Under the pieces are notes generated by a model that saw only the letters and a program-made list of their open reading frames with translations, was not told where the DNA came from and did not search any database. A stretch of DNA of 64,000 nt from Jannaschia helgolandensis (lineage in GTDB: Bacteria > Pseudomonadota > Alphaproteobacteria > Rhodobacterales > Rhodobacteraceae): contig NZ_FNZQ01000001.1 of the NCBI RefSeq assembly GCF_900109285.1, positions 463,001 through 527,000 on the forward strand, in the 5' to 3' direction. Within the stretch, counting starts at the first letter, position 1. The number at the start of each line of letters is the position of its first letter. Of the stretch, positions 154 to 16,336 are shown one piece after another. A program made the translations under genes and the position numbers.

Positions 154-420
154 ATGTACGATCCTTTCAAGAACCGCATTCCGGAAGCGACGGGCCCCGC
201 TTCGGACATTCTTCCGGTCCTGCCTGCGGACGAGACCGACCTGCCGCAGGTCGCTGCGGCGCTTTACATAGAAACGGGCGGTGCCCTGTCCATCGTGACC
301 GCATCGAACGAGATTCGCACAATTATCGTCGGCGACCTGTCGGTCCTGCCGGTGCGAGCCCGCCGCGTCCGCGCAACCGGCACGACCGCCACCGGCATCC
401 ATGCACTGTTCATCGCATGA
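154..420 (+). CDS. ghsA: GTA head-spike base protein (GhsA / RCAP_rcc01079-like)
   Basis: An 88-residue protein with no signal peptide or membrane segment, rich in beta-type sequence (VAAALYIETGGALSIV; IRTIIVGDLSVLPVRARRV). Length, sequence style and position directly before a fibre-like hydrolase match the small spike base protein of Rhodobacter gene transfer agents, where base and fibre form the head spikes that contact the recipient's capsule. A GAGG ribosome-binding site sits seven bases before the ATG. Its stop codon overlaps the next start (ATGA at 417-420), so the two are translationally coupled. The family assignment is from memory of the R. capsulatus proteins. A small phage-like structural protein of unknown role is the fallback. 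Confidence 0.6.
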   Translation: MYDPFKNRIPEATGPASDILPVLPADETDLPQVAAALYIETGGALSIVTASNEIRTIIVGDLSVLPVRARRVRATGTTATGIHALFIA

Positions 421-1787
421 GGTTCGATTTCGCAATTACTTCCACATCGGACGTGCTTCGGGGAAGAGTGCGGCGCGCAGGGCATTGGTCCCGCGCGCTG
501 TTCACTGAGGGCGATACGGGTTTCACCTATGATCCGTCAGACGTCACTTCACTGTTTCAGGATGCCGCCGGAACCCTTCCAGTCGTGGCAGATGGCGACC
601 CTGTTGGTCGCATGGTCGACCAGAGCGGCAAGGGCCACGACGCGTTGCAGACGATTGCCGAACGGCGGCCGCTGTGGCGGACCGATGGCATCAGGGGCTG
701 GCTGGAGTTCGACGGTACGGATGACGAGATGACCGTGCCGCAGACTGCCTTGTCGCAGACCGCCACGAGCTTCGTCGGTATCGTGGCCCTGACGGCGAAT
801 GGCTATTACCCGATGATCCTGGGGGATCAATCGCTGTCGAGTGGGCTAAGCGCAGGGTTCGGCAATGGTAGCGGGCGCAAACCGCGCTTCGGCATCTCCG
901 GACACAACCCGGTCACCCTGATTGCCGCGGACGCGCTGACACTCGGGCAGGTGACGTCCATGGCCTATGTCTGGGATGGGTCCAACCGCGTTCTCTTGCG
1001 GGATGGCAGGGAAGTCGGGCGCGACGTCCAGACCGCCACATGGGTAAAGGGCGATCAGCCGCTGCTATGCTATTCCGGGTCGAATGTCCTGAAGTCGTCG
1101 ATCCTGTTTCACGGCGGTCTGGCCATCGATCGCGGTCTGTCCGGAGTTGAGCTGGCAAAAATCTCGGCCCGCTTAGGACAGGAATTACCCGCAGCGGGAA
1201 CGGCATGGATCCTGGGCGACAGTTCCATCGCATCCTATGCGGGGCTTCCCTCGGTCCTCGGCCTTCTCGACGGCGCGCGAGCCATGCAGGATCTGGCGGC
1301 ACCAGGACAGACCATTGCGCAACAGATGGCAGCCTGGACCTCGGCGAATGTAACGCAGGCGCTTGACGGTTTCGTCCTGATCCAGCTTGGATTGAACGAC
1401 CTCGACCCGTCCGAGACAGCGAATTCCGCCATTGGCCGGCTTCAGATGCTGGTCGATACCGTACGTGCAGATATCGGGTCCGCTCCCGTGCTGATTGCCC
1501 AGATGACGCCTGCACGGCAGCGTCTTCTGGATATCTACGGGGCACAGGAACCGGCAGCTCAGGATAAGTGGCTGGCAATAAATGCCGCCATTGCGGGTCA
1601 GGGGACAACTCCCGTCACGGGAGTCGACGCCCGCATCACCACGCATGTCGCCGCGATGGACGACGGGACGGGCGCTTTGGCGGCGGATTTCGATACAGGC
1701 GATGGCATCCATCCGAACACGGCCGGTCGCCAGCTGATCGCGGATGCCTGGAGAGCGGGTTTGAATGGGTTGGATCTGTCGGTCTGA
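417..1787 (+). CDS. ghsB: GTA head-spike fibre with SGNH hydrolase domain (GhsB-like)
   Basis: A 456-residue protein. Residues about 30-260 look like a LamG/concanavalin-type beta sandwich (VDQSGKGHDALQ; WLEFDGTDDEMTV), typical of carbohydrate-binding fibres. Residues about 263-450 carry all SGNH esterase blocks: ILGDSS with Ser269, APGQ with Gly297, GLND with Asn327, and DGIH with Asp429 and His432. An intact catalytic set suggests removal of acyl groups from polysaccharide rather than binding alone. It is coupled to the spike base gene and sits beside capsule genes, as rcc01079-rcc01080 do in R. capsulatus to my recollection. No other GTA structural genes are in the window. Plain alternative: a secreted-type SGNH esterase, but there is no signal peptide. 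Confidence 0.6.
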   Translation: MRFDFAITSTSDVLRGRVRRAGHWSRALFTEGDTGFTYDPSDVTSLFQDAAGTLPVVADGDPVGRMVDQSGKGHDALQTIAERRPLWRTDGIRGWLEFDGTDDEMTVPQTALSQTATSFVGIVALTANGYYPMILGDQSLSSGLSAGFGNGSGRKPRFGISGHNPVTLIAADALTLGQVTSMAYVWDGSNRVLLRDGREVGRDVQTATWVKGDQPLLCYSGSNVLKSSILFHGGLAIDRGLSGVELAKISARLGQELPAAGTAWILGDSSIASYAGLPSVLGLLDGARAMQDLAAPGQTIAQQMAAWTSANVTQALDGFVLIQLGLNDLDPSETANSAIGRLQMLVDTVRADIGSAPVLIAQMTPARQRLLDIYGAQEPAAQDKWLAINAAIAGQGTTPVTGVDARITTHVAAMDDGTGALAADFDTGDGIHPNTAGRQLIADAWRAGLNGLDLSV

Positions 1788-2065: not shown

Positions 2066-3412
2066 ATGATCAGGACCATGATCACCGGGCTGGCATGTCT
2101 TGCCCTGACGGGATGCGGCGCAGTCTACTCATCGTCATCTGTGCCGCGCGATGCACCCGGTGTCCGCGTCCTGTCGCTGACGGCGGACTCGGTGTTGACC
2201 GCCAACTCTACTCCCTATGTCCCCCGTGCCCTGCCTGCGGTTTTCGAGGCCAATGCCGGGGCCGGATCAGACCTGGGCGCGCCTGGTGCGGTGCCGCCCG
2301 CCGCATTGTCGCGCCCGGTGCGCCCCGGGCCGCTGGCTTTGGACGCCCCGCCAGCGGTGCGATCCGGGTCCTATGCGATCGGCATCGGGGACGTCCTGTT
2401 ACTGGCCACCCGCTCCGACGGTTCAACCGCCGCAGAACTTTCGGGCCTGCTGGCCGCCGCAAACCGGCGTCAGGGCTATACGGTCCGTAGCGACGGTGCG
2501 ATCGCCATTCCCGACATCGGGCGAGTTCCGGTTGCCGGACTGACCCTCGAGGGAGCCGAAGACGCATTGTTCCAGGCCCTTGTTGCCAACAACATCGACC
2601 CGACGTTCAGCCTTGAAGTGGCGGAGTTCAACTCCGGGCGCGTATCAGTCGGTGGTGCGGTCGCCAACCCGACGGTCGTTCCGGTCGCTCTGACCGAATT
2701 GACATTGGATGCGGCTCTGGCTGGTGCCGGTGGCGTATCAACGGGCAACCTCGATTTCGCGCTGATCCGCATCTATCGAGATGGTCGGCTTTACCGGATT
2801 CCAATTGCGGATTACCTGTCCCGGCCAGCCCTCCAGAAAACGGTTCTGATCGCGGGCGACAGTGTCTTCGTCGGCGAGGAGTTTGATCTGGATCGGGCGC
2901 AGGCCTATTTCTCGGAGCAGATCCAGCGCGCCGGTCTACAAGCCGCTCAGCGCAGTCAAGCGCTGGCCGAGTTGACCACCGAGGTTGGCCTGCGGCGCGC
3001 GGCACTGGATGAAACGCGGGGCAACTTCCAAGACCGGTTCGCGCTGGATGCGGTCGAGCGCGATTATGTCTATCTGACCGGCGAAGTGCGGATGCCCAGC
3101 AGGTTTCCCCTGCCTTTCGGACGACAGGCCACACTGGCCGACGCCCTGTTCGAAAGCGGCGGGTTCGAGTCGAAAACCGCAAACCCCGGTCAAATTTACG
3201 TATTGCGCGCGGCTGCCGATTCCGCCGAGCCGGGAGCAGTGATCGCATGGCATCTCGATGCTCGGAATGCAGTGATGTTCACAGTCGCGACCCGGATGCA
3301 GATGCGGCCCGGTGATGTGATTTTCGTCGCCGAGCAGCTGATCACGCGGTGGAACAGGTCGATCAGTCAACTTGTGCCGCAGGTCATCGCAGCCGGGAAC
3401 GCCGCAAACTGA
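2066..3412 (+). CDS. Polysaccharide export (OPX) outer-membrane lipoprotein, Wza/KpsD-like
   Basis: A 448-residue lipoprotein precursor with a short signal peptide and lipobox LTGC, giving lipidated Cys17. A proline- and alanine-rich linker (about 40-95) precedes a poly-export domain starting near SGSYAIGIGDVLLLATRSDG. One SLBB-type segment follows (GGAVANPTVVPVALTELTL), and a second lies near residues 335-420 after a helical, probably coiled stretch (about 285-325). OPX proteins form the outer-membrane exit channel for capsule or exopolysaccharide and work with a Wzc-type kinase, present here at 16425-18575. The gene converges on the sugar transferase gene with 29 bases between them. Confidence 0.85.
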   Translation: MIRTMITGLACLALTGCGAVYSSSSVPRDAPGVRVLSLTADSVLTANSTPYVPRALPAVFEANAGAGSDLGAPGAVPPAALSRPVRPGPLALDAPPAVRSGSYAIGIGDVLLLATRSDGSTAAELSGLLAAANRRQGYTVRSDGAIAIPDIGRVPVAGLTLEGAEDALFQALVANNIDPTFSLEVAEFNSGRVSVGGAVANPTVVPVALTELTLDAALAGAGGVSTGNLDFALIRIYRDGRLYRIPIADYLSRPALQKTVLIAGDSVFVGEEFDLDRAQAYFSEQIQRAGLQAAQRSQALAELTTEVGLRRAALDETRGNFQDRFALDAVERDYVYLTGEVRMPSRFPLPFGRQATLADALFESGGFESKTANPGQIYVLRAAADSAEPGAVIAWHLDARNAVMFTVATRMQMRPGDVIFVAEQLITRWNRSISQLVPQVIAAGNAAN

Positions 3413-3441: not shown

Positions 3442-4164
3442 TCAGCGACCACCGCCGCTTGCCACGACCCGAAGCGTCTTCAGCGCGATCCGGGTGTCCA
3501 TCACATACCCGCGCCTGCGGACATAGGTCAGGTCTGCGGCGACTTTGGCGCGTGTCGCGTCGGCCCCCTCCGCATAACCGAGGTCGACCTGTGCCAGACC
3601 CGTTATACCAGGCTTGACCGCATGACGCTCGTGATAGCCCGGAATCGTTCGAAGATAGTGCCGCGCATGCGGCAGATAGTCGGGTCGCGGTCCGATCAAA
3701 CTCATCTCACCGCGCAGGACATTGATGATCTGCGGCAGTTCGTCGATGCGGGTTCGACGGATGAACCGCCCGACTGTCGTAATCCGGTTGATTTCCAGCG
3801 GGTCATGGGCGCGGCGATTTATACGATGGGTCGATGTCATGCTGCGGAACTTGATAACCCGGATCGGCTTGCAATCCTTTCCCATCCGCTTCTGATGAAA
3901 GATCAGAGGCCCGGCGTTCGAGGATCGGTTTACAATGGCAAGTCCGACCGCGCAAAGCCCCAGTATCGGAAGCAGGGCCAGGGAAACGACAAGGTCAAAA
4001 GCGCGTTTGGCACCTGGAAAATGCGCTTCCGGTTTTATGGATACGGCGACTTTCACAGGGCGCGCAAAAAGAACACCTCGTTGACCGTAGATCGCATCAA
4101 TGAATGCGCTGGACGGGCCGCAGAATTCGGACGTTATCGCCAGGCCGCCTTCGAAATCATTCAT
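3442..4164 (-). CDS. Priming sugar-phosphate transferase (monotopic phosphoglycosyl transferase)
   Basis: A 240-residue member of the bacterial sugar transferase family, which moves a sugar phosphate from a nucleotide sugar to undecaprenyl phosphate as the first step of repeat-unit assembly. One hydrophobic membrane segment (FDLVVSLALLPILGLCAVGL) comes first, followed by the conserved blocks VIKFRSMT, TRIDELPQIINVLRGEMSLI with GPRP, and PGITGLAQV. It lacks the extra N-terminal membrane helices of the long WbaP/WcaJ class, so it resembles the short PglC/ExoY form. The ATG at 4164 overlaps the stop of the upstream glycosyltransferase (ATGA), which decides the start. It is the last gene of its operon. 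Confidence 0.9.
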   Translation of the reverse strand: MNDFEGGLAITSEFCGPSSAFIDAIYGQRGVLFARPVKVAVSIKPEAHFPGAKRAFDLVVSLALLPILGLCAVGLAIVNRSSNAGPLIFHQKRMGKDCKPIRVIKFRSMTSTHRINRRAHDPLEINRITTVGRFIRRTRIDELPQIINVLRGEMSLIGPRPDYLPHARHYLRTIPGYHERHAVKPGITGLAQVDLGYAEGADATRAKVAADLTYVRRRGYVMDTRIALKTLRVVASGGGR

Positions 4165-5156
4165 GTCGACGTCTTGCGCCTTCTTTGAGATCGCGCGGGC
4201 CGGGCCAGCAGACGCAGCCGATGAAGGACATGCCCGATAGTCCCTCTGCCCACCATGGCGACACCGATACCGGCCATGGCCCCAAGCATCGCCGCGATCC
4301 ACAGTCCCCGTGGATAGGCTCTCCGCCGCTCCCGGTCGCGCCCGATTAACCGCCGTAACGATGTCAGATCCCCTTGCCGACCGAACCCCCGCGCAAGCCG
4401 TCGCTCGCGCAGGTCGGTGGCGCGGAGCCAGAGATCCGGAAACTCGGCCCTGAGATTCTTGTCGAGAATCCGAAACCCGTCTTCGAACCGCTGCGTGATC
4501 ACATGCCCAAGCCCACCGGGGCTGTCTCGCTTGATGATCAGCGGGGTGTCCAGAAAGCGGAAACGCGCGATCCGCGCCGCTCGCAAGTAGAAATCCAGGT
4601 CCTCGTAGGTCAACGACTCATCGAATGGGCCGACCGCATCGAAGAGATTGCGACTGGCGAAAAACGATGGGGCGTTGATCCAGCCGCGTCCCAGGGCAAT
4701 ATCCTCCATGACCCAGCCATCGAGCGGTTTTCCGAAGGGCGGGCGATGCCGAATACGGACGCCATCCCTGCGCAACCGGATGGCCGCGCTTTGCATGCAG
4801 ACCATATCGGTCGCCTCGGTCACAACGGCAGCCATGTTGCGGGATACGAAAGTCGGCAGATACATGTCGTCGGAGGCGATCATGCCGATCCAATCGCCGT
4901 CGGCAGCCGCGATACAGCGGTTCAGACTGGCACAAACGCCCTTGTTCGAGACATTTTCCAGCAGGATCATCGGCACCGGAGAGCGCGCTGCCATATCGCG
5001 AAGGATCGCCAGCGTGCCGTCGGGTGAAGCATCGTCGCAAACCACGATTTCAAGGTTAGGATAATCCTGAGCCCAGAGACTCTCGATGCAATCGGCCACG
5101 TGATCGGCGTGGTTGTAAGCGGGCACGACGATCGTGACCCGAGGCGGGTCGATCAT
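4161..5156 (-). CDS. GT2-family glycosyltransferase
   Basis: A 331-residue GT-A fold glycosyltransferase. The N-terminus VTIVVPAYNHADHVADCIES, the segment VVCDDASPDGT and the SDD metal-binding motif (GMIASDDMYL) are typical of family 2. The acceptor region has EDLDFYLRAAR. The C-terminal 60 residues include a hydrophobic patch (LWIAAMLGAMAGIGVAMV) that may anchor it to the membrane. It probably adds one sugar to the lipid-linked repeat unit at the cytoplasmic face. The start at 5156 overlaps the stop of the flippase gene (ATGA), and its stop overlaps the next start. Donor and acceptor cannot be told from sequence. Confidence 0.85.
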   Translation of the reverse strand: MIDPPRVTIVVPAYNHADHVADCIESLWAQDYPNLEIVVCDDASPDGTLAILRDMAARSPVPMILLENVSNKGVCASLNRCIAAADGDWIGMIASDDMYLPTFVSRNMAAVVTEATDMVCMQSAAIRLRRDGVRIRHRPPFGKPLDGWVMEDIALGRGWINAPSFFASRNLFDAVGPFDESLTYEDLDFYLRAARIARFRFLDTPLIIKRDSPGGLGHVITQRFEDGFRILDKNLRAEFPDLWLRATDLRERRLARGFGRQGDLTSLRRLIGRDRERRRAYPRGLWIAAMLGAMAGIGVAMVGRGTIGHVLHRLRLLARPARSQRRRKTST

Positions 5157-6547
5157 GCGGGATGCCTCCGAAAGAACGCGGCGGGTTGCAGGGCCAAAAT
5201 ACCCAAGGCCGCCTGTATAATGGCCAGCAGCCAGGTCAGCGCAGGCACATTGAGGGAGAGCGTCGCCAGCAACAGGGCAGTCGCTGTCAGGATCAACGGG
5301 ACCGGACCTGGCGACATCGCCTGTGCAGCCCCCCAGATCAGCCCCGCCGCCAGGTAGGCGCCATAGGCGAGCGCAAATCCGACGCCGACGGCGGTCAGAC
5401 CCAATATCGGCATCAGGATCAGCGATAGCCCGAGGCACAGCATCGCGAAACCAAGTTCGGCCAAGAAGAATATGCCCCCCGCCCCCCGCGCCAGCATGGC
5501 GAAGCCCATGGCCCAGGCAGGCAGTCGCAGGATCGTGCCAAGCGCCATCCAGCCCAGAAGCGGTGCCGCCGGTAGAAACGCTTCGGAATAGAATAGGGTC
5601 AGTACCAGATCCGCCTGCCCCGCCAATACGACCAGGACCGGCGCGCCCAACGCCAGTATGAGGCGGATTTGCGTGTCGATCAGCGCCCGTGCCTCGGCAG
5701 GGCGCGACAGCAGGGCCGTCAAACGGGGATAGAAATCGGCAGATATCGCGGCCAGGACAAATCCGGCCTGCGTTACCGCCAACGCCCATGCCGCAGTGAA
5801 CAGACCGACCGCATCCAGCCCCAATCGGGAGGCGATCTGCGCCCGCAGGACTAGCAGGACCATGGCTGAAAAAGCTGTTCCGGCTACTGTCGCCATGCCC
5901 AGTCGCACCAGCCGGGGCCAGAGCGCCGGACCGGGCCGGGCACCTGTCGCCGCAGGCCGCGCCGGAACCATCCAGACCAGGCAGGCCAGCACGGCAGGCG
6001 GCACAAGAACCAGTGCAGGCAAGGCAGCCGCGCCCCATTTCGCGATCGCGGCCAATGCCAGGACGGTGCCAGCGGCGGCGGCGGTCACCTGGACGCGGGC
6101 AAGGGTGTGTATGCGCCGTTGTCCCTGCAAAAGGGCGGTGCCGGCCCCGGCCAGAAGCGCGACAGGTATGCCCAGACCCACAAACGCGACTTCGGCCCCG
6201 CGTGTCGGATCGTCCAGAAGCCAGCCTGCCAGCGGCACTCGAAAGACGAAGACCGCCACGGCGGCGATGCCGCCCTGAACGATAGCCGCGCGCGGCAAGA
6301 GCAGCGTCGCGCGCGTCAGACGGTGCGGGCGTGCGGCAATCATGCGGACCGTCGCAGGGCCAAGGCCAAGCCCAGCTATCTGCGATCCGAAGGCCTGTAA
6401 CGCCAGCATCAGGCCAAGCACGCCCAGCCCGGCCGGTCCCAGCCACAGCGATACCAGTTTGAATCGTACCAGTCCCATCAGCAGGATCGCGACCTGCGCC
6501 GATCCGGTAACGGCGAAAGCGGCCAACAGAGGGCGCAGGGAGGTCAT
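5153..6547 (-). CDS. Wzx-type lipid-linked repeat-unit flippase
   Basis: A 464-residue polytopic protein of about 12-14 hydrophobic segments, of the MOP/MATE-like polysaccharide transporter superfamily. The N-terminus (LRPLLAAFAVTGSAQVAILL) and the internal motif FSAMVLLVLRAQIASRLGLD fit O-antigen/capsule flippases. Wzx proteins turn undecaprenyl-diphosphate-linked repeat units from the inner to the outer face for polymerisation by Wzy, encoded nearby at 10906-11979. It is coupled by four-base overlaps to the DegT aminotransferase gene upstream and the GT2 gene downstream. Flippases diverge widely, so family identity is firm but sugar specificity is not. Confidence 0.85.
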   Translation of the reverse strand: MTSLRPLLAAFAVTGSAQVAILLMGLVRFKLVSLWLGPAGLGVLGLMLALQAFGSQIAGLGLGPATVRMIAARPHRLTRATLLLPRAAIVQGGIAAVAVFVFRVPLAGWLLDDPTRGAEVAFVGLGIPVALLAGAGTALLQGQRRIHTLARVQVTAAAAGTVLALAAIAKWGAAALPALVLVPPAVLACLVWMVPARPAATGARPGPALWPRLVRLGMATVAGTAFSAMVLLVLRAQIASRLGLDAVGLFTAAWALAVTQAGFVLAAISADFYPRLTALLSRPAEARALIDTQIRLILALGAPVLVVLAGQADLVLTLFYSEAFLPAAPLLGWMALGTILRLPAWAMGFAMLARGAGGIFFLAELGFAMLCLGLSLILMPILGLTAVGVGFALAYGAYLAAGLIWGAAQAMSPGPVPLILTATALLLATLSLNVPALTWLLAIIQAALGILALQPAAFFRRHPA

Positions 6548-7659
6548 AGCGCAGCCCGCAAAACATCTGCTACGCGCCTGGCATCCTCTTCGGGCAGATG
6601 CGGTCCCATCGGCAGGCTGAGAACCGTTTCCGAAATGCGATCCGCCTGTGTCAGAGCCTGTCTGTTGATACCAATCCCCCGGTGCGCGCCCTGGCGATAA
6701 CAGGGAATCGGATAATGTATCCCGGTGCCTATTCCAGCGTCTGCCAATCGTGCCGCCAGTCGGTCCCGATGCGCATGACGCACGACATAGAGGTGCCAGG
6801 ACGGGTCGGTACCGGGTAGCGTCACAGGCAGGACCAGCCCGGTTCCGGCCAACTCCTCGGCATAGATCCCGGCAATGCGGGCCCGCCGCGCGACCCAGGT
6901 CGTCAGATGCCGCAGCTTGACGGCCAGAACCGCCGCCTGAAGCGGATCGAGGCGAGAGTTTATACCAAGCTCTACCGCGTCGTACTTTGCCGTCGCACCA
7001 TAATTGGTCAGGCGGCGAATACGATCGGCGATCTTCGGGTCGTCGGTCGTGACCGCGCCCCCGTCGCCCAACGCGCCCAGCGTCTTGGCGGGATAGAAGC
7101 TCCAGGCGACGGCATCGCCATGCGCCCCAATGGGGCGGTCACGAAACCGGGTGCCATGCGCCTGCGCCGCATCTTCGACCACCTTCAGACCGGTGTCGCG
7201 CGCAAGGGCCAGAAGCCGATCCATCGGGGCAGGCTGACCATAGAGATGAACGGGCAAGATCACGCGGGTCGTGGAGTCGATGGCGGCGGCGGCGGCCTTC
7301 GGGTCCATCACCATTGTGACCGGATCGACGGCGACCGGCTGCACCCGTGCACCCAGGGCCGCGATGGCGTGCCAGGTGGCGACAAAAGTATGCGCTGGGA
7401 CGATGACGCCATCGCCGGGTCCCACGCCGCAGGCGCGCAGCGCAAGTGTCACGGCATCCAGTCCGTTACCGCAGCCGACCGCATGCTTCGCACCGCAATA
7501 CGCGGCCCAATCCGTCTCGAACATGGCGACTTCGGGACCGCCGATATACTGCCCCGACCGGGCGACACGCAAAAGCGCCGCCTCGATCCGGGGGGCCAGT
7601 TCGCGGCTTGCGGCGGCAAGATCGAGAAACGGTATGCTGCGCTTCAGGGTCGCGGTCAC
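6544..7659 (-). CDS. DegT/DnrJ/EryC1 sugar aminotransferase (FdtB/QdtB-like)
   Basis: A 371-residue PLP enzyme that adds an amino group to a keto-sugar nucleotide. Asp163 in KVVEDAAQAHGT and the PLP lysine Lys192 in SFYPAKTLGALGDGG are the family hallmarks; CGNGLDAVTLAL is the substrate and PLP-binding start of the fold. The operon also contains an FdtA/QdtA-type ketoisomerase, so a 3-amino-3,6-dideoxyhexose on dTDP is the likely product. The GTG start at 7659 overlaps the stop of the acetyltransferase gene (GTGA), a pattern repeated along the operon. Confidence 0.9.
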   Translation of the reverse strand: MTATLKRSIPFLDLAAASRELAPRIEAALLRVARSGQYIGGPEVAMFETDWAAYCGAKHAVGCGNGLDAVTLALRACGVGPGDGVIVPAHTFVATWHAIAALGARVQPVAVDPVTMVMDPKAAAAAIDSTTRVILPVHLYGQPAPMDRLLALARDTGLKVVEDAAQAHGTRFRDRPIGAHGDAVAWSFYPAKTLGALGDGGAVTTDDPKIADRIRRLTNYGATAKYDAVELGINSRLDPLQAAVLAVKLRHLTTWVARRARIAGIYAEELAGTGLVLPVTLPGTDPSWHLYVVRHAHRDRLAARLADAGIGTGIHYPIPCYRQGAHRGIGINRQALTQADRISETVLSLPMGPHLPEEDARRVADVLRAAL

Positions 7660-8198
7660 ACGGCAATCCTCTCCTGCGCGGCGAGCAGACCGGGAGCTGC
7701 ACGGTTCCAGTCCGATGCGGTCAGGCGATACAGGATATCGGTTTCGGTCGCACCGATCCGGGTCGCGCCGAACCTGTCGTGGAAGGCCAGCGCCGCAGTG
7801 TTCGCGCGGCGCACGTCAAAGGTGGCCTTCGGCAGGCCCAACAGGTCGAACCCGATACGATAGACCATCAAGGCCGATTCGAGGGCTGCGCGCCGCGGCT
7901 TCATTGCCGGATGCAAAAGCCAGCTGCCCCAGGTGAAGCCTGCGTCGCAAAGATTCGACAACCTCAAGAGACCGCAATCGCCGGTCGGGCCTGCAATAAC
8001 GTAGTAACCACGAATTTCGGCCTTTTTCAGCCACCGGACCTGTCCCTCTATGCCGCCCGTGACCGGATGCAGGTGGCGCGCCAATACCGGATCGCTGCGC
8101 AGACCGTGGACGAAGGCTGCATCGCCGGGCGTGATGCTGCGCAAGGACACGACCGGCCCCGAAAGCGTCATGGGAAGTCTCGCATAAAGGGTGTTCAC
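7656..8198 (-). CDS. GNAT-family N-acetyltransferase, probably acting on the amino sugar
   Basis: A 180-residue GNAT protein. The N-terminal strand (VVSLRSITPGDAAFVHGLRS), the segment FTWGSWLLHPAMKPRRAALE and the C-terminal FDVRRANTAALAFHDRFGAT match the RimJ/RimL-type fold and CoA-binding region. Placed between a sugar aminotransferase and an acyltransferase, it probably N-acetylates the newly formed amino sugar, a job usually done by hexapeptide-repeat enzymes (FdtC/QdtC). The start is taken as GTG at 8198 because GAGGGGG lies about eight bases upstream and the codon overlaps the previous stop (GTGA). The ATG at 8171 has no such site. Confidence 0.75.
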   Translation of the reverse strand: MNTLYARLPMTLSGPVVSLRSITPGDAAFVHGLRSDPVLARHLHPVTGGIEGQVRWLKKAEIRGYYVIAGPTGDCGLLRLSNLCDAGFTWGSWLLHPAMKPRRAALESALMVYRIGFDLLGLPKATFDVRRANTAALAFHDRFGATRIGATETDILYRLTASDWNRAAPGLLAAQERIAV

Positions 8199-9232
8199 GC
8201 TGGTCGCCCCCTCGGCAGAGGGCGCGTGCGCAGCAACCAAAGTCGGGCCGGACGTTCGACCAGGTAATGGGCCGCTGTGGCGATGATCAGCGTCAGCACA
8301 ATCGTGACCAGCCAGTACGACGGCGCGGACAGATCGACGAGGCGCGGCAGACCGAGGATCACATGAAACTGGAACAGGTAGAACGCGTAGGAGATGCGGC
8401 CGAACCAGACCACGGGACGCGCCGAAAGCAGGCCGTTTGGGGTATGTGTCAGATGCAGGACCGCCATCCCGACGACCGGGATCAGCAGCGGTGCCCACAT
8501 CGTCGGCAACCCCTGTCCTTCGACACCGATCATCAACGTCGCGAACGCAAGAACGCCGAGCATCGGCAACCACCCGGGCACCTGCACGCCGCGCAGGGCC
8601 AGGTGGCCGAAGGCGACACCGGCCATAAACTCCGGCAAACGAAAGATCGGGGTGGCATACTGAAAGGCGAACCCCGGCCCGTTCGGAAAGATATAATAGG
8701 TTCCGGCAATCATCCCCGAGAAGATCATCGTCGTCAGTATGACCCATATCAGCGTCTGTTCCGGCAGCGCGTGCAGCACATGCCGCACCGCCGGAAATGC
8801 GGTATATAATGCGGCTTCGACCGACAGGGACCAACTGCTGGCGTGGTTCCAGATATTGAAAAGATTTGGAAACCATGCCTGAAGCATAAGCCCCGAAATC
8901 AGCACCGTGGTCGCGATCGCAAGTGGACTTTGGTCCGACGACAGAAGCCACGGCAGCGCCATCACGGCGGCCAGTGCATAGAGCGGATAAATCCGGGCCA
9001 TCCGGGCCCGCGCAAACCTGCGCAGATCCGGACCGTCACGACAGGCAAGCGTCAGTACGAACCCCGACAGTACGAAGAATACCGTCATACCGGCCGCGCC
9101 CGCCTGAAAAATTGCCGCCAGCGGTCCGTCGACAATCGGTGCCCGGATATGCAGGTGAAAGCCGAAGACCCAGACAGCAGCCACTGCGCGCAATCCCGTC
9201 AGGGCCAATATCTCGCCCTCTGGGGGTGTCAT
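8195..9232 (-). CDS. Acyltransferase-3 family membrane O-acyltransferase (OafA-like)
   Basis: A 345-residue protein with about ten membrane segments. It opens with the family signature LTGLRAVAAVWVFGFHLHIR, including the catalytic-type histidine, followed by FFVLSGFVLTL and RFARARMARIYPLYALAAVM. These enzymes carry acyl groups, usually acetyl, across the membrane onto surface sugars. Within this operon it should decorate the capsule or O-unit. It is coupled on both sides by four-base overlaps. The spike fibre at 417-1787 carries an SGNH esterase that could remove such groups. Confidence 0.88.
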   Translation of the reverse strand: MTPPEGEILALTGLRAVAAVWVFGFHLHIRAPIVDGPLAAIFQAGAAGMTVFFVLSGFVLTLACRDGPDLRRFARARMARIYPLYALAAVMALPWLLSSDQSPLAIATTVLISGLMLQAWFPNLFNIWNHASSWSLSVEAALYTAFPAVRHVLHALPEQTLIWVILTTMIFSGMIAGTYYIFPNGPGFAFQYATPIFRLPEFMAGVAFGHLALRGVQVPGWLPMLGVLAFATLMIGVEGQGLPTMWAPLLIPVVGMAVLHLTHTPNGLLSARPVVWFGRISYAFYLFQFHVILGLPRLVDLSAPSYWLVTIVLTLIIATAAHYLVERPARLWLLRTRPLPRGRPA

Positions 9233-9660
9233 GCGGTTGTCGGACTGAAGGTGACATGACGCACGGCGACCCGGAAGGCAGCGTGATCGCGAATGTAGTC
9301 GGCTTCTTCATAGGCTGCGGATGCCATGACCAGGCAAACAGTCTCCGGTGCGAAATCCGTAAGATCGCGCCATGTCATCGGACCGACGAGCAAGGCCCGC
9401 GCCGGATTATCGAGACGATAAGACCGCGCGCCTCGCGCCGTCTCGAGTGTCAGGGTCAGAGCACCCGCAAGAGGGACGAATACCTGCCAGAGAGTGCGGT
9501 GCGCATGCCCCCCGCGCGGCGCGCCAGAAAAGCCGTGCAGCCAGTAGAGCCGCTTGATATCGAATGGCAGGGCCAGACCCTCGGCGACAGTAAGCTGCCC
9601 GCGGGAATCACCATGACGGGCAAGATCTATCCAGGGAGAAAGGGGCGGTGTGTCGAACAT
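9229..9660 (-). CDS. dTDP-sugar 3,4-ketoisomerase, FdtA/QdtA (WxcM-like) cupin
   Basis: A 143-residue cupin of the FdtA/WxcM family. The fold markers are WLHGFSGAPRGGHAHRTLWQ, with the catalytic pair His52 and His54, and the following strands LTLTLETARGARSYRLDNP. FdtA and QdtA turn dTDP-4-keto-6-deoxyglucose into the 3-keto isomer, which the DegT enzyme of this operon can then aminate. rmlA and rmlB, needed to make the substrate, are not in the window. First gene of a seven-gene operon; a consensus CtrA box lies 25-40 bases upstream of its ATG. Confidence 0.85.
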   Translation of the reverse strand: MFDTPPLSPWIDLARHGDSRGQLTVAEGLALPFDIKRLYWLHGFSGAPRGGHAHRTLWQVFVPLAGALTLTLETARGARSYRLDNPARALLVGPMTWRDLTDFAPETVCLVMASAAYEEADYIRDHAAFRVAVRHVTFSPTTA

Positions 9661-9742: not shown

Positions 9743-10909
9743 TCAATCCTCTGACAGATCGGCGAGTTCGCGGCGATAGGCGGCAATTACCAGCCTTTCG
9801 TCAAAGAACTGCTCCGCCCGGCGACGCGCGGCATTTCCCATATCGATACGCGCCGGAGGACCGATCCCGATCATCTCGGTCATCGCGCGCGCCAGGTCGT
9901 TCGGATCGCGCACCCGGCAGAGAAGCCCGGTTTGGCCCGGCACGATCGCGTCGCGACATCCGGGATGGTCCGTCGTGATGATCGGACGCCCGGTCGCCGC
10001 CGCTTCAAGCAGGCTGCGGGGCAGGCCCTCGGCATAGTAGCTGGGAAGGACAATGCAATCCGCATCCGCAAGGTAGGGCCGCACGTCCGCAACATGGGCG
10101 ATAAACTCCAGCCCATCTATCCTGCGCCAGCTTTCCAGATCCCGCGCGGCGACCATTCCCGCATCGCGGTCGTCGAATGCGCCCAGAACCGTGACATGCG
10201 CTTCAACGTCCCAGCGCCGCATGATCCGCAGTGCTTCCACCAGATCGGCAACGCCCTTGTCGCGCAGCAACCGCGCGATCATGAGAAAGCGAACCTGCGC
10301 ACGCGATGGCGCGAACGGAGCCTGCGCAAACCTGACCAGATCGACACCCGATCCGGGAAGCGACTTGATCTGTCCCGCGGTCAAAAAGCCCCCGTCGAGC
10401 AGAAGTTCCGCATCGTTCGCATTCTGCACAAAAACCGGAGCGACACCCTTCAAACCCCTTTTATAGAGCCTTCCCGCCACCCAGCCCAGCATTGACCCCC
10501 GTCTGGCAAAGGCGGTTCCCAGCCCTGTTACATTCGGAACAACGGGAATTCCCAACGGGCGGGCCGCCAGCGCCCCATAGAGGTTGTTCTTGATCGTCCA
10601 GCTGAGCACCACGTCCGGGGCCAGCCGCCGAAATGCCAGCCGCATTCGCCAGATCAGCGCAATCTCCGACAGGGGATTCAGACCCCTGGCGTCCATCTTC
10701 AGCGGCACGACCCTGCATCCCATGGCGGCAATTTCGCCGTCATGGATCGACGGCGGAACCAGCGCGACAAGCTCGTGCCCGTCGGCCAGCAGGGCCGCGA
10801 TCAAACCGGCGCGGAAGTTCACAAGATTGAAGCCCGTATTTGCGGTCAGCACGATCCGCAGGGGGCCGCGCGGTCCGCAAGAAGGACTACGGTGGGTCGG
10901 GTCGGTCAC
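9743..10909 (-). CDS. GT4-family glycosyltransferase (PglA-like)
   Basis: A 388-residue GT-B glycosyltransferase. The N-terminal domain has RIVLTANTGFNLVNFRAGLI; the NFR element is seen in PglA-type HexNAc transferases. The C-terminal donor domain has FLMIARLLRDKGVADLVEAL and the EX7E-type segment YYAEGLPRSLLEAAATGRPI. It should extend the lipid-linked repeat unit. The GTG at 10909 is chosen because it overlaps the polymerase stop (GTGA) and has AGAGG about eight bases upstream. Last gene of its set; only a small TGCCG-TTA-CGGCA hairpin lies downstream, so read-through into the ketoisomerase operon is possible. Confidence 0.87.
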   Translation of the reverse strand: MTDPTHRSPSCGPRGPLRIVLTANTGFNLVNFRAGLIAALLADGHELVALVPPSIHDGEIAAMGCRVVPLKMDARGLNPLSEIALIWRMRLAFRRLAPDVVLSWTIKNNLYGALAARPLGIPVVPNVTGLGTAFARRGSMLGWVAGRLYKRGLKGVAPVFVQNANDAELLLDGGFLTAGQIKSLPGSGVDLVRFAQAPFAPSRAQVRFLMIARLLRDKGVADLVEALRIMRRWDVEAHVTVLGAFDDRDAGMVAARDLESWRRIDGLEFIAHVADVRPYLADADCIVLPSYYAEGLPRSLLEAAATGRPIITTDHPGCRDAIVPGQTGLLCRVRDPNDLARAMTEMIGIGPPARIDMGNAARRRAEQFFDERLVIAAYRRELADLSED

Positions 10910-11979
10910 AACGGAAACCTCTGAACATCGGGATATCCCCCGATCCAGGTCTGATAGGGGACGAAACACTGTTCGAAGTGATCGGAGGTCGCCATCCAGA
11001 CGACGAAAAGCGCGAGCAGCGCGACCCAGGGCACGGTCGCCAGAACCCTGCGGCTGTCGCGGGTCGGAAGATACGGAATGCGCGCAAAGATCACAGCCTG
11101 GACCGGAACCAGATAATAGGCGAGCCGATCCGCGATAACCGTCGAGACGGGAAGGATCGCGACCATTGCCATCATCCCGAGACTTCCGATCAGGACGAAA
11201 TCGTAATCCTCCGGCCAGGCCCGCTTCCATGCCGAGCGCAGGAACAGGCGAAAGGCCAGCCCAGACAGAACGATGAACATGACGCGGAAGATCGCACCCT
11301 GCGCCACAAGGTCCGTATCGACATAGCGCGCGGTCGCGATCGCGACTGCTTCGCCGGACCACAGGAAAACGATGCCGGGAATGGCCAGCAGTGCCGCCAT
11401 TGCCAGTCTTGTCCAATTGTAACGGCCCCCGACCAACGGCAGAAGAAGCGCGAAGATCAGGGCGCTTTGGTGGAACAGGCTGGCCAGTCCGACCCAGATG
11501 CCGAAGCGGACGACCCTGCGGTCCATCATCGCCGTGAATGCAACGCAGACCAGACCGATCGCGATGGCCTGTCGCAGCGCGCCCATCGACATATTCACCA
11601 CGAGGACCGGGTACAGGAATGCAAGAAAGGCGAACGGATCGGGTTGCCGTCTGGCCAGCGCGTGAACGCCGGCAAAGAAGATGATCGCGGTGGCGACGTT
11701 GACGAATGGGTAGGGCAGGCCGGCTGCCCCGATCGTCTCGATCATCAGCCACCAACCCGGATCCCGCCGAACGATAGACCGATCATAGGAGGGGCTGCCG
11801 ACAATCTCGAAATGATTGAGGTATCCGGACCAGTCGCAACCGACTTCGAAGCGGAACGCCACGAACAGGAACATCGCCGCCATGATGATCCAATAGAGCT
11901 GATCGCGCAGCCGGTGATACGGCGCAATCCCCCAGCGCAGCAGCATCAAGGCCACAAAAGGCAAAAGATAGACAATCAC
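10906..11979 (-). CDS. Wzy-like polysaccharide polymerase (EpsG family)
   Basis: A 357-residue integral membrane protein with about ten hydrophobic segments. The segment FLFVAFRFEVGCDWSGYLNH is the EpsG-type signature (aromatic-R-x-G-x-D/DW-x-x-Y) near the N-terminus, and GLASLFHQSALIFALLLPLV holds the conserved histidine. Such proteins polymerise flipped repeat units at the periplasmic face. The GTG start at 11979 overlaps the stop of the upstream glycosyltransferase gene (GTGA). The presence of Wzx, Wzy, a Wzc-type kinase and OPX in one locus indicates a Wzy-dependent pathway. Confidence 0.8.
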   Translation of the reverse strand: MIVYLLPFVALMLLRWGIAPYHRLRDQLYWIIMAAMFLFVAFRFEVGCDWSGYLNHFEIVGSPSYDRSIVRRDPGWWLMIETIGAAGLPYPFVNVATAIIFFAGVHALARRQPDPFAFLAFLYPVLVVNMSMGALRQAIAIGLVCVAFTAMMDRRVVRFGIWVGLASLFHQSALIFALLLPLVGGRYNWTRLAMAALLAIPGIVFLWSGEAVAIATARYVDTDLVAQGAIFRVMFIVLSGLAFRLFLRSAWKRAWPEDYDFVLIGSLGMMAMVAILPVSTVIADRLAYYLVPVQAVIFARIPYLPTRDSRRVLATVPWVALLALFVVWMATSDHFEQCFVPYQTWIGGYPDVQRFPL

Positions 11980-13040
11980 CCTGCCGCCCCGCGCAGCAGC
12001 GCCGCGACCCGGGGTGCCCAGACCTGCAGGGAATAGGAACGCTCCACCTTGGCGCGCCCCGCGGCCCCCATCCGCGCACGCAGGGCCGGATCGTCCAGCA
12101 GCGTGATCAATGCGTCGCGCCAATCCTTTGCGGTCCTGGCCAGGAAGCCGTTCACCCCATGTTCGACGATCTCGGTGTTCACGCCCGTAGGCGATGCCAC
12201 GACCGGTCGTCCGCAAGCCATGTACTGGATCAGCTTGTACCCGCATTTCCCGCGCGACCACGGGCTGTCGTCCAGCGGCATGATGCCCACATCCATGCCG
12301 CGGATCGCCTCGACCTCCGTATCTTCGGACCACGGCAGATACTCGATGCCGTCCTCGATCTCTGACGTGCCGCGCGCCCCGATGGCCCGGAACAGGCCGC
12401 CACGCGGGATCACGACGTCCACGATCAGACGTTGCATCGGCGCGGCATGATCTGCCCATGTCATCGGCGTCCCGACCCAGCCCACGCGCAGGCCACCGTC
12501 CGGCGGGGGCAATGGGCTGGCCGGATAGCGCGACAAATCGACGACTGTCGGCACGACCTCGACCCGACCGGCCCCGGCGGTCCTTGCGCGGTCGGCGATA
12601 TAGGGATTGCCCGCCATGACGATGCGCGATGCAGCCATCACCCCGTCGATCTTGCCACCCAGAAGCCCACGCACAGACGCGCGGCGGTGGTGGTCATAGC
12701 GGTGAAAGACGGCATCGTCATGGTCCGATACTACCGGCACATCCCGCGGCCATGCCGGACGCTCCAAAAGCCATGGAAGCCAAGGCAAAGCCTCTTTTTC
12801 CAGCCAGATCACATCGGCAGAGCCAGCGGCGCGCAAATCCGCCAGACGGGTTCGGATATATCGACCCAGATGCGCTTTGCGCGACCCACCGCCATAGAGA
12901 GCCGAAATATAGGTTGCATCGAAGAACGGGCGGGTCGAAACCTGAAACCCTTCGGCTTCGAGAAACGGGACGTATTGAGCGGTTCGCAATCGCGATGACG
13001 CGGCGACGGCGTCGTATCGCGACAGGATCACGAGCTTCAC
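11976..13040 (-). CDS. GT4-family glycosyltransferase
   Basis: A 354-residue GT-B protein. The N-terminal domain starts KLVILSRYDAVAASSRLRTA and contains VPVVSDHDDAVFHRYDHHRR; the C-terminal domain has LRVGWVGTPMTW and GIMPLDDSPWSRGKCGYKLI, then QYMACGRPVVASPTGVNTEI. These are donor-binding features of family 4. The GTG start at 13040 overlaps the stop of the gene before it. The donor sugar cannot be deduced. It lies between another GT4 gene and the polymerase, so it works on the same repeat unit. Confidence 0.85.
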   Translation of the reverse strand: MKLVILSRYDAVAASSRLRTAQYVPFLEAEGFQVSTRPFFDATYISALYGGGSRKAHLGRYIRTRLADLRAAGSADVIWLEKEALPWLPWLLERPAWPRDVPVVSDHDDAVFHRYDHHRRASVRGLLGGKIDGVMAASRIVMAGNPYIADRARTAGAGRVEVVPTVVDLSRYPASPLPPPDGGLRVGWVGTPMTWADHAAPMQRLIVDVVIPRGGLFRAIGARGTSEIEDGIEYLPWSEDTEVEAIRGMDVGIMPLDDSPWSRGKCGYKLIQYMACGRPVVASPTGVNTEIVEHGVNGFLARTAKDWRDALITLLDDPALRARMGAAGRAKVERSYSLQVWAPRVAALLRGAAG

Positions 13041-14227
13041 GATGCAGACCCCAGAATCGTATCGTAAAGACTTGCGTAGGCCCGCGTCCCATCCTCCAGC
13101 GAGAACAGCGTCTCGGCCGTGGCACGGGCGCGGTCGGGCAGGTCGGGGTCATGGCGCAGGGCCGACAGATCGGACAGCGCGGCGCGCGCCGCATCCATGG
13201 TACAATCCGCCATCAGCACGCCGACACGATGACCGGTTACGATGTCCGCGACATTGCCGACGCCCGCGTTCGCAATCACCGGGCGGCCCGTGGCGAGGAT
13301 TTCCGCCAATCGCGTAGGAGAAGACCCCAGTCTGGCCGGTCCGGTGGCGTAGAACATCGCCGAGGCGTGGTGGCCAGCGATCCGCGCCGCCACGTCTTCC
13401 GGCGGCACCGACACGATTGTCAGTCGCGCGGTCGGTACATTGGGCAGGCCTGCGCGAACGACATCGGAGTCGTCGCGAGTTACGACCTCGAATAGGGCAG
13501 TGGGGTCATCGGACGCCGCTGCCGCGAACAGCGCATCGAGCCAATCCAGACGAAACCAGCCGGACGTGACCGACCCGACGCAACCGAACACCATCGGCGC
13601 GTCGGGTGGCGGGCGCATCGGGAACCTGTCCAGATCGGCACAGGTCGGGATCACGACAATGCGTTGGCCGATAAGCTCGGACGGGTAGATGCCTTGCAGG
13701 TGTGAAACCGCCGCGTCGGTCAGGGATACCACGCCCGCGGCATCGCGAAGGCACAGCCGTTCCATACGTCGCAGAACCCGTTCCATCGGCGACCCGGCCG
13801 TCAGGCGACCCGCTTCGATCATCTCGTCCAGCCAGAGCGCGCGCATGTCGAATACGAACGGAACGCGGGTCCGCCGCCACAGGGCCCGGGCAATGGCCGC
13901 AGGAATATAGGACCGGGCGTGGATCAGGGCGATAGGCTTCTGCCGCATGATCCTCATCGCAACTTTGAACATCGTCGCGAAATTTCGGGCCGCGCCAATC
14001 CTGCCTGCCCGGAACCTCTGCGGTCGCCAGTCGATGCCATGCGCCGCGCAATCGGCCCGCAGTGCGGCCATGTGGGATGCATCATCGGCATCGTCGATCT
14101 TTTCGGCAGTCAGAAGCGTGATATCATGATTACGCGACAGCCCGCGCAGATAGCTCATGACCTGACTCTGACCCAACGGATCCGCCAGCCCGGTGCGCGT
14201 CAGATAGAGTATGCCGGGACGCTTCAC
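13037..14227 (-). CDS. GT4-family glycosyltransferase
   Basis: A protein of 396 residues from the GTG at 14227. The N-terminal domain begins GILYLTRTGLADPLGQSQV, the usual start of this GT4 subgroup; RSYIPAAIARALWRRTRVPF and the C-terminal SSPTRLAEILATGRPVIANA complete the GT-B fold. The frame stays open to 14425 (ATGs at 14368 and 14425), but the added residues look non-conserved, so I prefer the shorter form although its ribosome-binding site is poor. First gene of the four-gene minus-strand set that ends at 9743. Confidence 0.82.
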   Translation of the reverse strand: MKRPGILYLTRTGLADPLGQSQVMSYLRGLSRNHDITLLTAEKIDDADDASHMAALRADCAAHGIDWRPQRFRAGRIGAARNFATMFKVAMRIMRQKPIALIHARSYIPAAIARALWRRTRVPFVFDMRALWLDEMIEAGRLTAGSPMERVLRRMERLCLRDAAGVVSLTDAAVSHLQGIYPSELIGQRIVVIPTCADLDRFPMRPPPDAPMVFGCVGSVTSGWFRLDWLDALFAAAASDDPTALFEVVTRDDSDVVRAGLPNVPTARLTIVSVPPEDVAARIAGHHASAMFYATGPARLGSSPTRLAEILATGRPVIANAGVGNVADIVTGHRVGVLMADCTMDAARAALSDLSALRHDPDLPDRARATAETLFSLEDGTRAYASLYDTILGSAS

Positions 14228-14532: not shown

Positions 14533-15561
14533 ATGACCGACAAAGACCCCCGCACCATTTTTGTGACCGGCACCGCCGGGTTCATCGGTTTCCATCTTGC
14601 ACGGCACCTGCTGGACGAAGGTTTCACTGTGGTCGGCTTCGACGGGATGACCGATTACTACGACGTCGCTCTCAAACGTCGCCGCCATCAGATGCTGCTC
14701 CAGACCCCGGGTTTTCGTGCCGTCGAGGGGCGGCTGGAGGATTCCGACCTGCTGAAGCGCACCATGACCGAGGCCGCGCCCGACGTTATCGTTCACTTGG
14801 CCGCGCAGGCGGGCGTCCGCTACAGCCTGGAAAATCCCCGGTCCTATGTCGAAGCCAATCTGGTCGGCACATTCAACGTGATGGAATGCGCCCGCGAACT
14901 GGCGGTCGATCATTTGCTGATGGCCTCCACCTCTTCGGTCTACGGGGCGAACACGCAGATGCCGTTCACCGAAGACCAGAAGACCGATGCGCCCCTGACA
15001 CTTTATGCCGCGACCAAGAAAGCGAACGAGCACATGGCGCATTCATATGCGCACCTGTGGAAAATTCCGACGACGATGTTCCGCTTCTTCACTGTCTACG
15101 GGCCCTGGGGCAGGCCCGATCTGGCGCTTTATAAATTCGCGAAGGCGGCCTTTGCCGGAGAGGCGATCGACGTCTACAACCACGGCCGCATGTCGCGCGA
15201 CTTCACCTATATCGACGATCTGGTTCGTGGCATCCGTCTGCTGATCGATACGCCGCCGGTGGAGCCCGCCGACCCGTCCGACATCGCGCCGGGCGATACG
15301 CTCAGCCCGGTGGCGCCTTACCGCGTCGTGAACATCGGCAACGGCGAACAGGTGCAACTGATGGAATTCATCACCGCACTGGAAGCCGAGCTGGGCTTCG
15401 AGATCAGGAAGAACATGATGGAAATGCAGAAGGGCGATGTTCCCGGAACCTGGGCCAGTTCGGATTTGCTGGAGAGTCTGACTGGTTATCGTCCCGACAC
15501 GCCCGTTCGCGCCGGTATAGCGAAATTCGTCGCCTGGTATCGCGACTACCACGGCGTGTAA
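14533..15561 (+). CDS. UDP-glucuronate 4-epimerase (extended SDR)
   Basis: A 342-residue NAD-dependent epimerase. The nucleotide-binding motif is IFVTGTAGFIGFHLARHLL, the catalytic set is Ser-rich STSSVYG with YAATK, and FFTVYGPWGRPDLALYKF is typical of UDP-glucuronate epimerases (LspL/CapI group). The product UDP-galacturonate would supply an acidic sugar to the capsule. It is transcribed away from the glycosyltransferases and ends four bases before the convergent phosphatase gene, leaving no room for a terminator. Confidence 0.85.
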   Translation: MTDKDPRTIFVTGTAGFIGFHLARHLLDEGFTVVGFDGMTDYYDVALKRRRHQMLLQTPGFRAVEGRLEDSDLLKRTMTEAAPDVIVHLAAQAGVRYSLENPRSYVEANLVGTFNVMECARELAVDHLLMASTSSVYGANTQMPFTEDQKTDAPLTLYAATKKANEHMAHSYAHLWKIPTTMFRFFTVYGPWGRPDLALYKFAKAAFAGEAIDVYNHGRMSRDFTYIDDLVRGIRLLIDTPPVEPADPSDIAPGDTLSPVAPYRVVNIGNGEQVQLMEFITALEAELGFEIRKNMMEMQKGDVPGTWASSDLLESLTGYRPDTPVRAGIAKFVAWYRDYHGV

Positions 15562-15565
15562 TACG

Positions 15566-16336
15566 TCAGGTCAGGGTCCTGAAGGTCCCTTCTTCCAGAA
15601 CACCTACGGTCAGAAGGCCCGAAAAATGCGCGCCGGTATCAAGCGCGATGCGCCCGTCGGCTATTTCCGGAACGTCGACGACCGTATGCCCGTGCGCCAC
15701 CCAGATGCCATCGCGCCGTGGTGTGGTTCTGAAGTCGGGATGGCCCCAGATCATCGTTGTGTCCGCCTGCCCGGACACGGCCAGGCGCGGGTCCAGTGCG
15801 GCATGAACGCAAACCAGATTACCTGACCGCCACAGCAACGGCAGGTTCGACAGCCAGATCTCCAGACCCGCGGGCAGCGCGGCGCGCAGGTCTGCTGCTG
15901 CAGATCCCAGAGCGTCAGGATCGGATATGTCGGTATCTTCGATGCCGAAACTGGCCATCGTCGTCAGGCCGCCATTGTGCAACCAGAGACGTCCGCAGGA
16001 TACCGGATCGGCAAGAAAATCCAGCATCATCCGTTCGTGATTTCCCATCAGCGTGACGACCGGGATCGGGCTGGTCCCCGGCAAAGCTCTGAGCTTTTCA
16101 AGAACCTGGGCCGACTGCGCGCCCCGGTCTACGTAATCGCCCAGAAACACCAGGGCCGAGGGCCCATCACATCCAGCCAGATCGCCGTCGATCCGGGCCA
16201 GTGCCGACATCAGCAGATCGTGCCGACCGTGAATATCGCCCACGGCGTAAACGCGGACATCGGGTTGTAATGGCGCAGAGAATTGCGGTCCCCTGCGACG
16301 CACCGCAAGTCGGTCAATAAGATACCTGACGATCAT
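15566..16336 (-). CDS. Calcineurin-like serine/threonine-type metallophosphatase
   Basis: A 256-residue protein of the PPP-like metallophosphoesterase family. The metal-binding signatures are all present: VGDIHGRHD (GDxHG), FLGDYVDRG (GDxVDRG) and LMGNHERMM (GNHE), with a later AHGHTV histidine motif and DTGAHF. AGGGGACATAG precedes the ATG. It lies between the epimerase and the divergent tyrosine autokinase, so it might counter protein phosphorylation linked to the capsule system. That role is a guess from position; bis(nucleosyl)-tetraphosphatase or a general phosphatase are alternatives. Confidence 0.8.
   Translation of the reverse strand: MIVRYLIDRLAVRRRGPQFSAPLQPDVRVYAVGDIHGRHDLLMSALARIDGDLAGCDGPSALVFLGDYVDRGAQSAQVLEKLRALPGTSPIPVVTLMGNHERMMLDFLADPVSCGRLWLHNGGLTTMASFGIEDTDISDPDALGSAAADLRAALPAGLEIWLSNLPLLWRSGNLVCVHAALDPRLAVSGQADTTMIWGHPDFRTTPRRDGIWVAHGHTVVDVPEIADGRIALDTGAHFSGLLTVGVLEEGTFRTLT

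Follow-up and report, generated by a model that had tools for sequence, protein, structure and literature searches.

Two overlapping genes near the start of the 64-kb stretch of Jannaschia helgolandensis DNA analysed here (the window) are best read as a GTA head-spike cassette, located at the edge of a polysaccharide locus and acting together with the GTA encoded on contig 8 of the same genome. We give this reading a probability of roughly 0.74. The upstream gene (154-420, plus strand) encodes a GTA-type head-spike base of 88 residues (P0001), and the downstream gene (417-1787, plus strand) encodes a head-spike fibre of 456 residues; both ORFs are open and share 4 nt. This agrees with the first-pass annotation, which had described a coupled pair of a small spike-base-like protein and a LamG-like/SGNH fibre.

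The assignment of the base was supported by homology to Rcc01079, a PHROG match and the AlphaFold fold. In sequence searches, the protein matched Rcc01079 (6tb9_E3) with an E-value of 3.3e-8 and phrog_12296 with an E-value of 2.1e-18, and a profile built from 39 base homologues reached 3.3e-28 for Rcc01079 and 1.7e-8 for a phage spike base (8cjz_h). The AlphaFold model (pLDDT 88) had its best PDB match in 6tb9_A1 (TM 0.78/0.81), the sole PDB match with an E-value of 0.001 or lower; the fold E-value for 8cjz was 1.9e-3. Judged from sequence and model, the base is homologous to Rcc01079 and has the same predicted fold, and the comparison with rcc01079 that had been proposed for the small protein did reveal similarity. 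The J. helgolandensis genome contained one clear base (E 6.6e-53), and two further places matched at E 0.09 and 0.34.

In the fibre, Pfam identified Laminin_G_3 (LamG) at residues 99-217 (9.9e-7) and Lipase_GDSL_2 at residues 267-440 (1e-9), phrog_10356 aligned to residues 29-112, and the SGNH blocks GDS, GLND and DGIH were located at residues 267, 325 and 429, respectively. The protein thus consists of an alternating hydrophobic stretch (approximately residues 1-8), a phage-fibre-like/LamG part extending to about residue 262 and an SGNH esterase (approximately 263-456). The N-terminus (MRFDFAIT) shows alternating hydrophobic residues with a run of four and is not of the LGLGLG form. Alignment with eight viral relatives covered approximately residues 1-262 of the fibre, seven of the eight stopping there, and the SGNH blocks were found in none of them. 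Since the viral relatives align to this part only and lack those blocks, the esterase looks like an appended module. The N-terminal part was 43% identical over 128 columns to one viral-contig protein, and a scan of genome contigs with the fibre gave three partial matches, all in Bacteroidota MAGs. Fold prediction for the fibre yielded no confident model (pLDDT 36).

Pfam was also run on 18 genes of the window, 15 of which are the right-hand neighbours of the spike pair. The first neighbour encodes an OPX outer-membrane polysaccharide export protein (2066-3412, plus strand; Poly_export, PF02563, 1e-12; SLBB_2, 3.5e-21). Eleven genes on the minus strand come next, encoding an initiating sugar transferase (3442-4164; Bac_transf, 9.8e-54), a GT2 glycosyltransferase (4161-5156; PF00535, 2.2e-26), a Wzx-type flippase (5153-6547; Polysacc_synt_3, 7.9e-16), a DegT sugar aminotransferase (6544-7659; PF01041, 1.2e-106), a GNAT acetyltransferase (7656-8171; PF13302, 2.4e-8), a membrane acyltransferase (8195-9232; Acyl_transf_3, 5e-25), an FdtA/WxcM-like ketoisomerase (9229-9660; PF05523, 9.8e-34), a GT4 glycosyltransferase (9743-10852; PF13692, 3.8e-26), an EpsG-type (Wzy-like) polymerase (10906-11979; PF14897, 1.8e-47), a GT4-like glycosyltransferase (11976-13040; PF13692, 4e-15) and a further GT4 glycosyltransferase (13037-14227; PF13579, 1.5e-14). 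The remaining genes encode a nucleotide-sugar epimerase (14533-15561, plus strand; PF01370, 3.6e-52), a metallophosphoesterase (15566-16243, minus strand; PF00149, 3e-13) and a Wzc-type co-polymerase/tyrosine kinase (16464-18575, plus strand; Wzz, 1.8e-17; AAA_31, 1e-8). The membrane acyltransferase might supply the polymer with ester groups. To the left of the pair lie a sigma/anti-sigma pair and metabolic genes (gene calls, named by eye). No phage genes could be recognised by eye among the gene calls of the 15-kb left flank and the 64-kb window, and no other phage structural or replication genes were seen near the pair, either by eye in the gene calls or by Pfam on the 18 window genes. Both the position beside an OPX gene and a Wzx/Wzy locus and the apparent lack of further phage or GTA genes nearby, as claimed before from the window sequence, were therefore confirmed at this level.

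The main GTA cluster, which had been suggested to lie elsewhere in the genome, is present on contig 8 as a run of open structural ORFs that appeared complete by eye, flanked by cysE and pyruvate dehydrogenase genes. Its capsid matched Rcc01687 with an E-value of 2e-178, and TIGR02218 scored above its cut-off in the cluster. A second TIGR02218 match fell on contig 12 (L010-L011, G000:C12), in a cluster that resembles a prophage and includes a GTA-like baseplate module. We also examined the occurrence of spike base and GTA capsid in 395 Rhodobacteraceae genomes. The base was found in 142 genomes (E-value of 0.001 or lower, among the matches listed) and the capsid in 326 (E-value of 1e-60 or lower). 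By hand count of the matches listed, 131 of the 326 capsid-positive genomes and 11 of the 69 capsid-negative genomes contained the base (p 9e-5); it should be noted that absence of the capsid does not exclude other GTA genes, as some of these genomes (for example, G003 and G012) had a GTA terminase match. Among 20 Jannaschia species, 19 had the capsid and five had the base, showing that a GTA exists without the spike base, which weighs against the GTA-spike reading; the spike is thus an accessory to the GTA in this genus. A search of 394 genomes of the family with a stretch of Rcc01079 gave no match exceeding 60% identity, which suggests that R. capsulatus itself is absent from the surveyed genomes. 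The base was weakly congruent with the capsid (Mantel r 0.22, p 0.0045, n 41), less so than 90-column segments of the capsid were with the remaining capsid (r 0.34-0.51). Partial horizontal movement of the spike base is therefore possible on sequence grounds, although the base is short.

To what extent the linkage with polysaccharide genes extends to relatives was analysed in 100 spike-base neighbourhoods from 95 genomes, hand-picked among the listed matches (seven were shorter than 13 kb; many loci from fragmented assemblies or close to the end of a contig were left out, and 16 bases missed by the gene caller were added from a profile search). As controls, one random region was used from each of 20 of these 95 genomes. 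Gene calls revealed polysaccharide markers in 64 of the 100 spike loci and in none of the 20 random regions, so adjacency by chance is unlikely; at least two kinds of marker occurred in 56 loci, and in 56 a marker was at most three genes away. A six-frame search placed markers within 10 kb of 67 of the 100 cellular bases, again with 0/20 for random regions. Thus, the synteny between such pairs and polysaccharide genes that had been looked for in relatives is present. No marker was found in the best 80 of 124 viral-contig loci carrying the same base family, which are shorter (888 kb in total versus 1.94 Mb for the cellular loci). The marker HMMs were built from clusters of the spike loci themselves, hence a separate Pfam check was made: among 100 of 182 nearest-neighbour proteins, glycosyltransferase families topped the list (5/100 and 4/100), and none was among the 25 Pfam families listed for the control proteins (100 of 345). 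On the other hand, gene calls gave no polysaccharide marker for 36 of the 100 spike loci, which weighs against the GTA-spike reading. No GTA capsid homologue was found within the 100 loci, and GTA- or prophage-like structural homologues of some kind occurred in four. One locus (L141), with its base near GTA- or prophage-like baseplate genes, is an exception to the rule. In four loci with polysaccharide markers around (L052, L066, L084 and L111), proteins of 733-746 residues are encoded convergently beside the base, possibly another form of fibre. One genome (G300) carried two spike pairs, approximately 95% identical, on different contigs (L115 and L138).

The base and its downstream gene were frequently coupled: 57 of the 100 loci had an ORF of 150 or more residues that started between -4 and +5 nt from the base stop. 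With wider limits, such an ORF was found in 42/64 marker-positive and 26/36 marker-negative loci; that it is no commoner in the former also weighs against the GTA-spike reading. An N-terminal alternating hydrophobic run of at least four was seen in 27 of these 68 downstream ORFs versus 107 of 1290 other genes. The coupling and hydrophobic-run tests used all 68, and the fibre comparison used 58 plus the window, 10 having been dropped by eye as doubtful. Over the resulting 59 loci, 1665 of 1711 base pairings were detectably related (E < 1e-3); for the fibres, 167 of 1711 pairings were related beyond residue 20 (E < 1e-4) and 67 over the full length, and the 59 fibres fell into 26 families. On these alignments the base is conserved and the fibre hypervariable. 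Pfam domains in the 59 fibres included LamG (6), GDSL (5) and SASA acetylesterase (4). A matching of fibre esterases with locus acyltransferases was not borne out beyond the window: three of 58 fibres had an esterase motif, one of them in a polysaccharide locus, and no acyltransferase match was found there.

We then asked whether spike and capsule genes change together, as the first-pass annotation had proposed. Across genera, linked variation was unsupported at present sampling: among 35 polysaccharide-positive loci, flank sharing was 0.105 for the 19 pairs with the same fibre family and 0.116 for the others (p 0.56). For all 58 loci the corresponding p value was 0.05, and for marker-negative loci it was 0.014, arising from two pairs. 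Joint replacement was seen in one of four congener pairs (L123/L131), in which the base was kept (68% across 53 residues; the gene call for the L123 base is short), the fibres had no detectable similarity and, among the remaining genes, a match at E 1e-10 was obtained for just one flanking gene (79%); this sequence pattern fits a linked replacement of fibre and flanks. The other three pairs had conserved flanks: one kept a 746-residue fibre-like gene (63%), another kept its fibre (43%) outside a polysaccharide locus, and no fibre could be recognised in the last. In a further Jannaschia species (G412), homologues of the OPX (76%), phosphatase and Wzc genes lie side by side, with no counterpart of the window's 3.4-15.6 kb block between them; no spike base was found in this genome.

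Some loci bear on mobility. At L131:12890-15560, next to a spike/polysaccharide locus, genes resembling integrase and excisionase were recognised by eye, which suggests a mobile island. Three plasmid records matched the base. In Tritonibacter mobilis p4 and in the conjugative plasmid unnamed3 of Pontibrevibacter nitratireducens, the base and a fibre-like next gene lie inside a polysaccharide locus, and in a Roseinatronobacter sp. S2 plasmid the base is at the edge of such a locus, with no fibre recognised. A base with a fibre-like neighbour within a polysaccharide locus is what the plasmid loci L169 (NZ_CP049814.1) and L168 (NZ_CP110387.1) contain, and one of these plasmids is typed as conjugative. 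A broader proposal would be that the spike, a conserved socket bearing an exchangeable fibre, belongs across the family to the polysaccharide locus and not to the GTA cluster, that it is inherited, replaced and moved along with its receptor genes, even on a conjugative plasmid, and that GTA exchange groups are set by mobile lock-and-key islands and not by phylogeny. At present we hold this proposal as tentative and somewhat doubtful.

Upstream regions of the bases were also examined. A palindromic promoter-like element, GCAGCGYACGCTGGnTTAA, was observed approximately 86 nt upstream of many bases (L047-L146), and the full element exceeded the 95% background threshold in 41 of 100 held-out spike-base upstreams. 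Its core, CG[CTA]ACG[GC], was present upstream of 44/100 spike bases, 17/30 GTA g1 genes and 213/1825 other genes, of 32/64 marker-positive versus 12/36 marker-negative spike loci, and of 2/77 viral bases, the upstreams of which are lower in GC. Three results weigh against the GTA-spike reading: the core also occurred in five of nine loci from GTA-capsid-negative genomes, it was absent from the 250 nt preceding the window pair, and the full element was not enriched at GTA g1 promoters, with 2/30 over the 95% null and no shift over 1.5 kb; only the core was common. Pairwise alignment of the window spike and GTA upstreams did not rise above shuffles, 48 of 300 of which reached the score. In R. 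capsulatus, CtrA and GafA control the spike genes, which belong to the late class (PMC9638019); by analogy, GafA is a candidate reader of the core.

How the window pair might work can be outlined from R. capsulatus, in which binding of base to capsid, of fibre to base and of fibre to capsule has been established. On a GTA particle assembled from the contig 8 cluster, five base subunits would sit on a capsid vertex, and one fibre would plug into the base via its N-terminal hydrophobic stretch. The LamG-like part would then bind the polymer of the adjacent Wzx/Wzy-type locus, which probably makes the receptor of the spike, and the SGNH domain would de-esterify that polymer. In this way, particles would be retained on cells that bear the same coat. 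For J. helgolandensis, we infer expression, assembly onto the GTA, substrate and kin bias.

Viral contigs carry the same base and fibre cassette (124 relatives, best base identity 66%; a coupled downstream ORF in 73 of the best 80 of 124 loci), and membership in a GTA thus rests on context. The pair might instead be a prophage remnant, or a capture from a capsule-targeting phage, with no role in a GTA, for which the similarity of the fibre N-terminal part to a viral-contig protein also speaks. Among annotated phages, 20 records had partial matches to the base, all of them Rhodobacter phages, and in RcRios the base-matching gene does not belong to the structural genes. However, both window genes are open and overlapping with no phage genes recognised by eye around them, polysaccharide genes recur at 67/100 cellular versus 0/80 viral loci, and a GTA-like capsid homologue occurred in 0/100 cellular loci, though 4/100 had some structural homologue. 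A remote phage origin would also be compatible with present GTA use, and we consider a phage relic unlikely. It might also be argued that the fibre or its esterase serves capsule modification or attachment, with the base as a carrier, given that the pairs sit beside or inside polysaccharide loci and that esterase or lectin domains recur among the fibres (LamG in six, GDSL in five and SASA in four of 59). Such a role appears very improbable: the base keeps the predicted fold of the capsid-bound Rcc01079 and is more frequent where a GTA capsid is present, and inspection by eye showed no clear export signal in either protein.

If the pair is a GTA head spike, its position has a biological implication. 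GTA producer cells die, and GTAs would therefore persist only if their DNA is delivered to kin. Fixing the spike gene next to the receptor genes offers a physical way to match donor tool and recipient receptor, and lock and key may travel together. Receptors have been proposed to confine GTAs to kin (PMC10883770), and the 64-67 spike loci with polysaccharide genes and the named plasmid cases make kin-restricted transfer testable. The first-pass annotation had presented the adjacency of receptor-binding tool and capsule genes as its main point. The gene linkage is real; it is not new, as PMC10218006 states that CPS and head-spike genes are adjacent and co-regulated in R. capsulatus. A statement of family-wide linkage was not found in the literature searched, including the available portions of PMC8601537, PMC6854486, PMC13420450 and PMC11841831. 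Relative to that literature, the breadth of linkage across Rhodobacteraceae relatives appears to be the new part.

Capsule-active phage tailspikes and deacetylases share the logic of sugar binding combined with an esterase. In contrast with these, the window spike is proposed to be placed on the head, is encoded by the cell and lies beside the likely receptor genes. The spike base of phage Carin1 (8cjz) resembles the window base in profile and fold, and spike cassettes of viral contigs have a coupled downstream ORF, as in the window. Unlike the window pair, the viral cassettes have major head, tail and terminase proteins among their neighbours (PHROG, 38 of 41 proteins examined) and no polysaccharide markers in 80 loci, and the viral fibres examined lack the SGNH part. 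The closest known system is the head spike of RcGTA, formed by Rcc01079 and Rcc01080 (GhsA/GhsB). The window base is homologous to that of RcGTA, the spike genes lie outside the GTA cluster in both organisms, and in both the fibre gene is directly downstream of the base gene, with the 4-nt overlap in the window. The RcGTA spike genes adjoin the capsule genes rcc01081-01086 (PMC10218006), and the window pair is likewise located by a polysaccharide locus. On the other hand, the neighbouring locus of the window is of the OPX/Wzx/EpsG type, and the window pair lacks the promoter core. The fibres differ in length and architecture: Rcc01080 is given as 325 residues and has an N-terminal peptide, IALGLGLGL, that binds the base pentamer (PMC7296036), whereas the window fibre has 456 residues with LamG-like and SGNH parts. 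The window pair is therefore a further case of the arrangement published for R. capsulatus, with a modified fibre.
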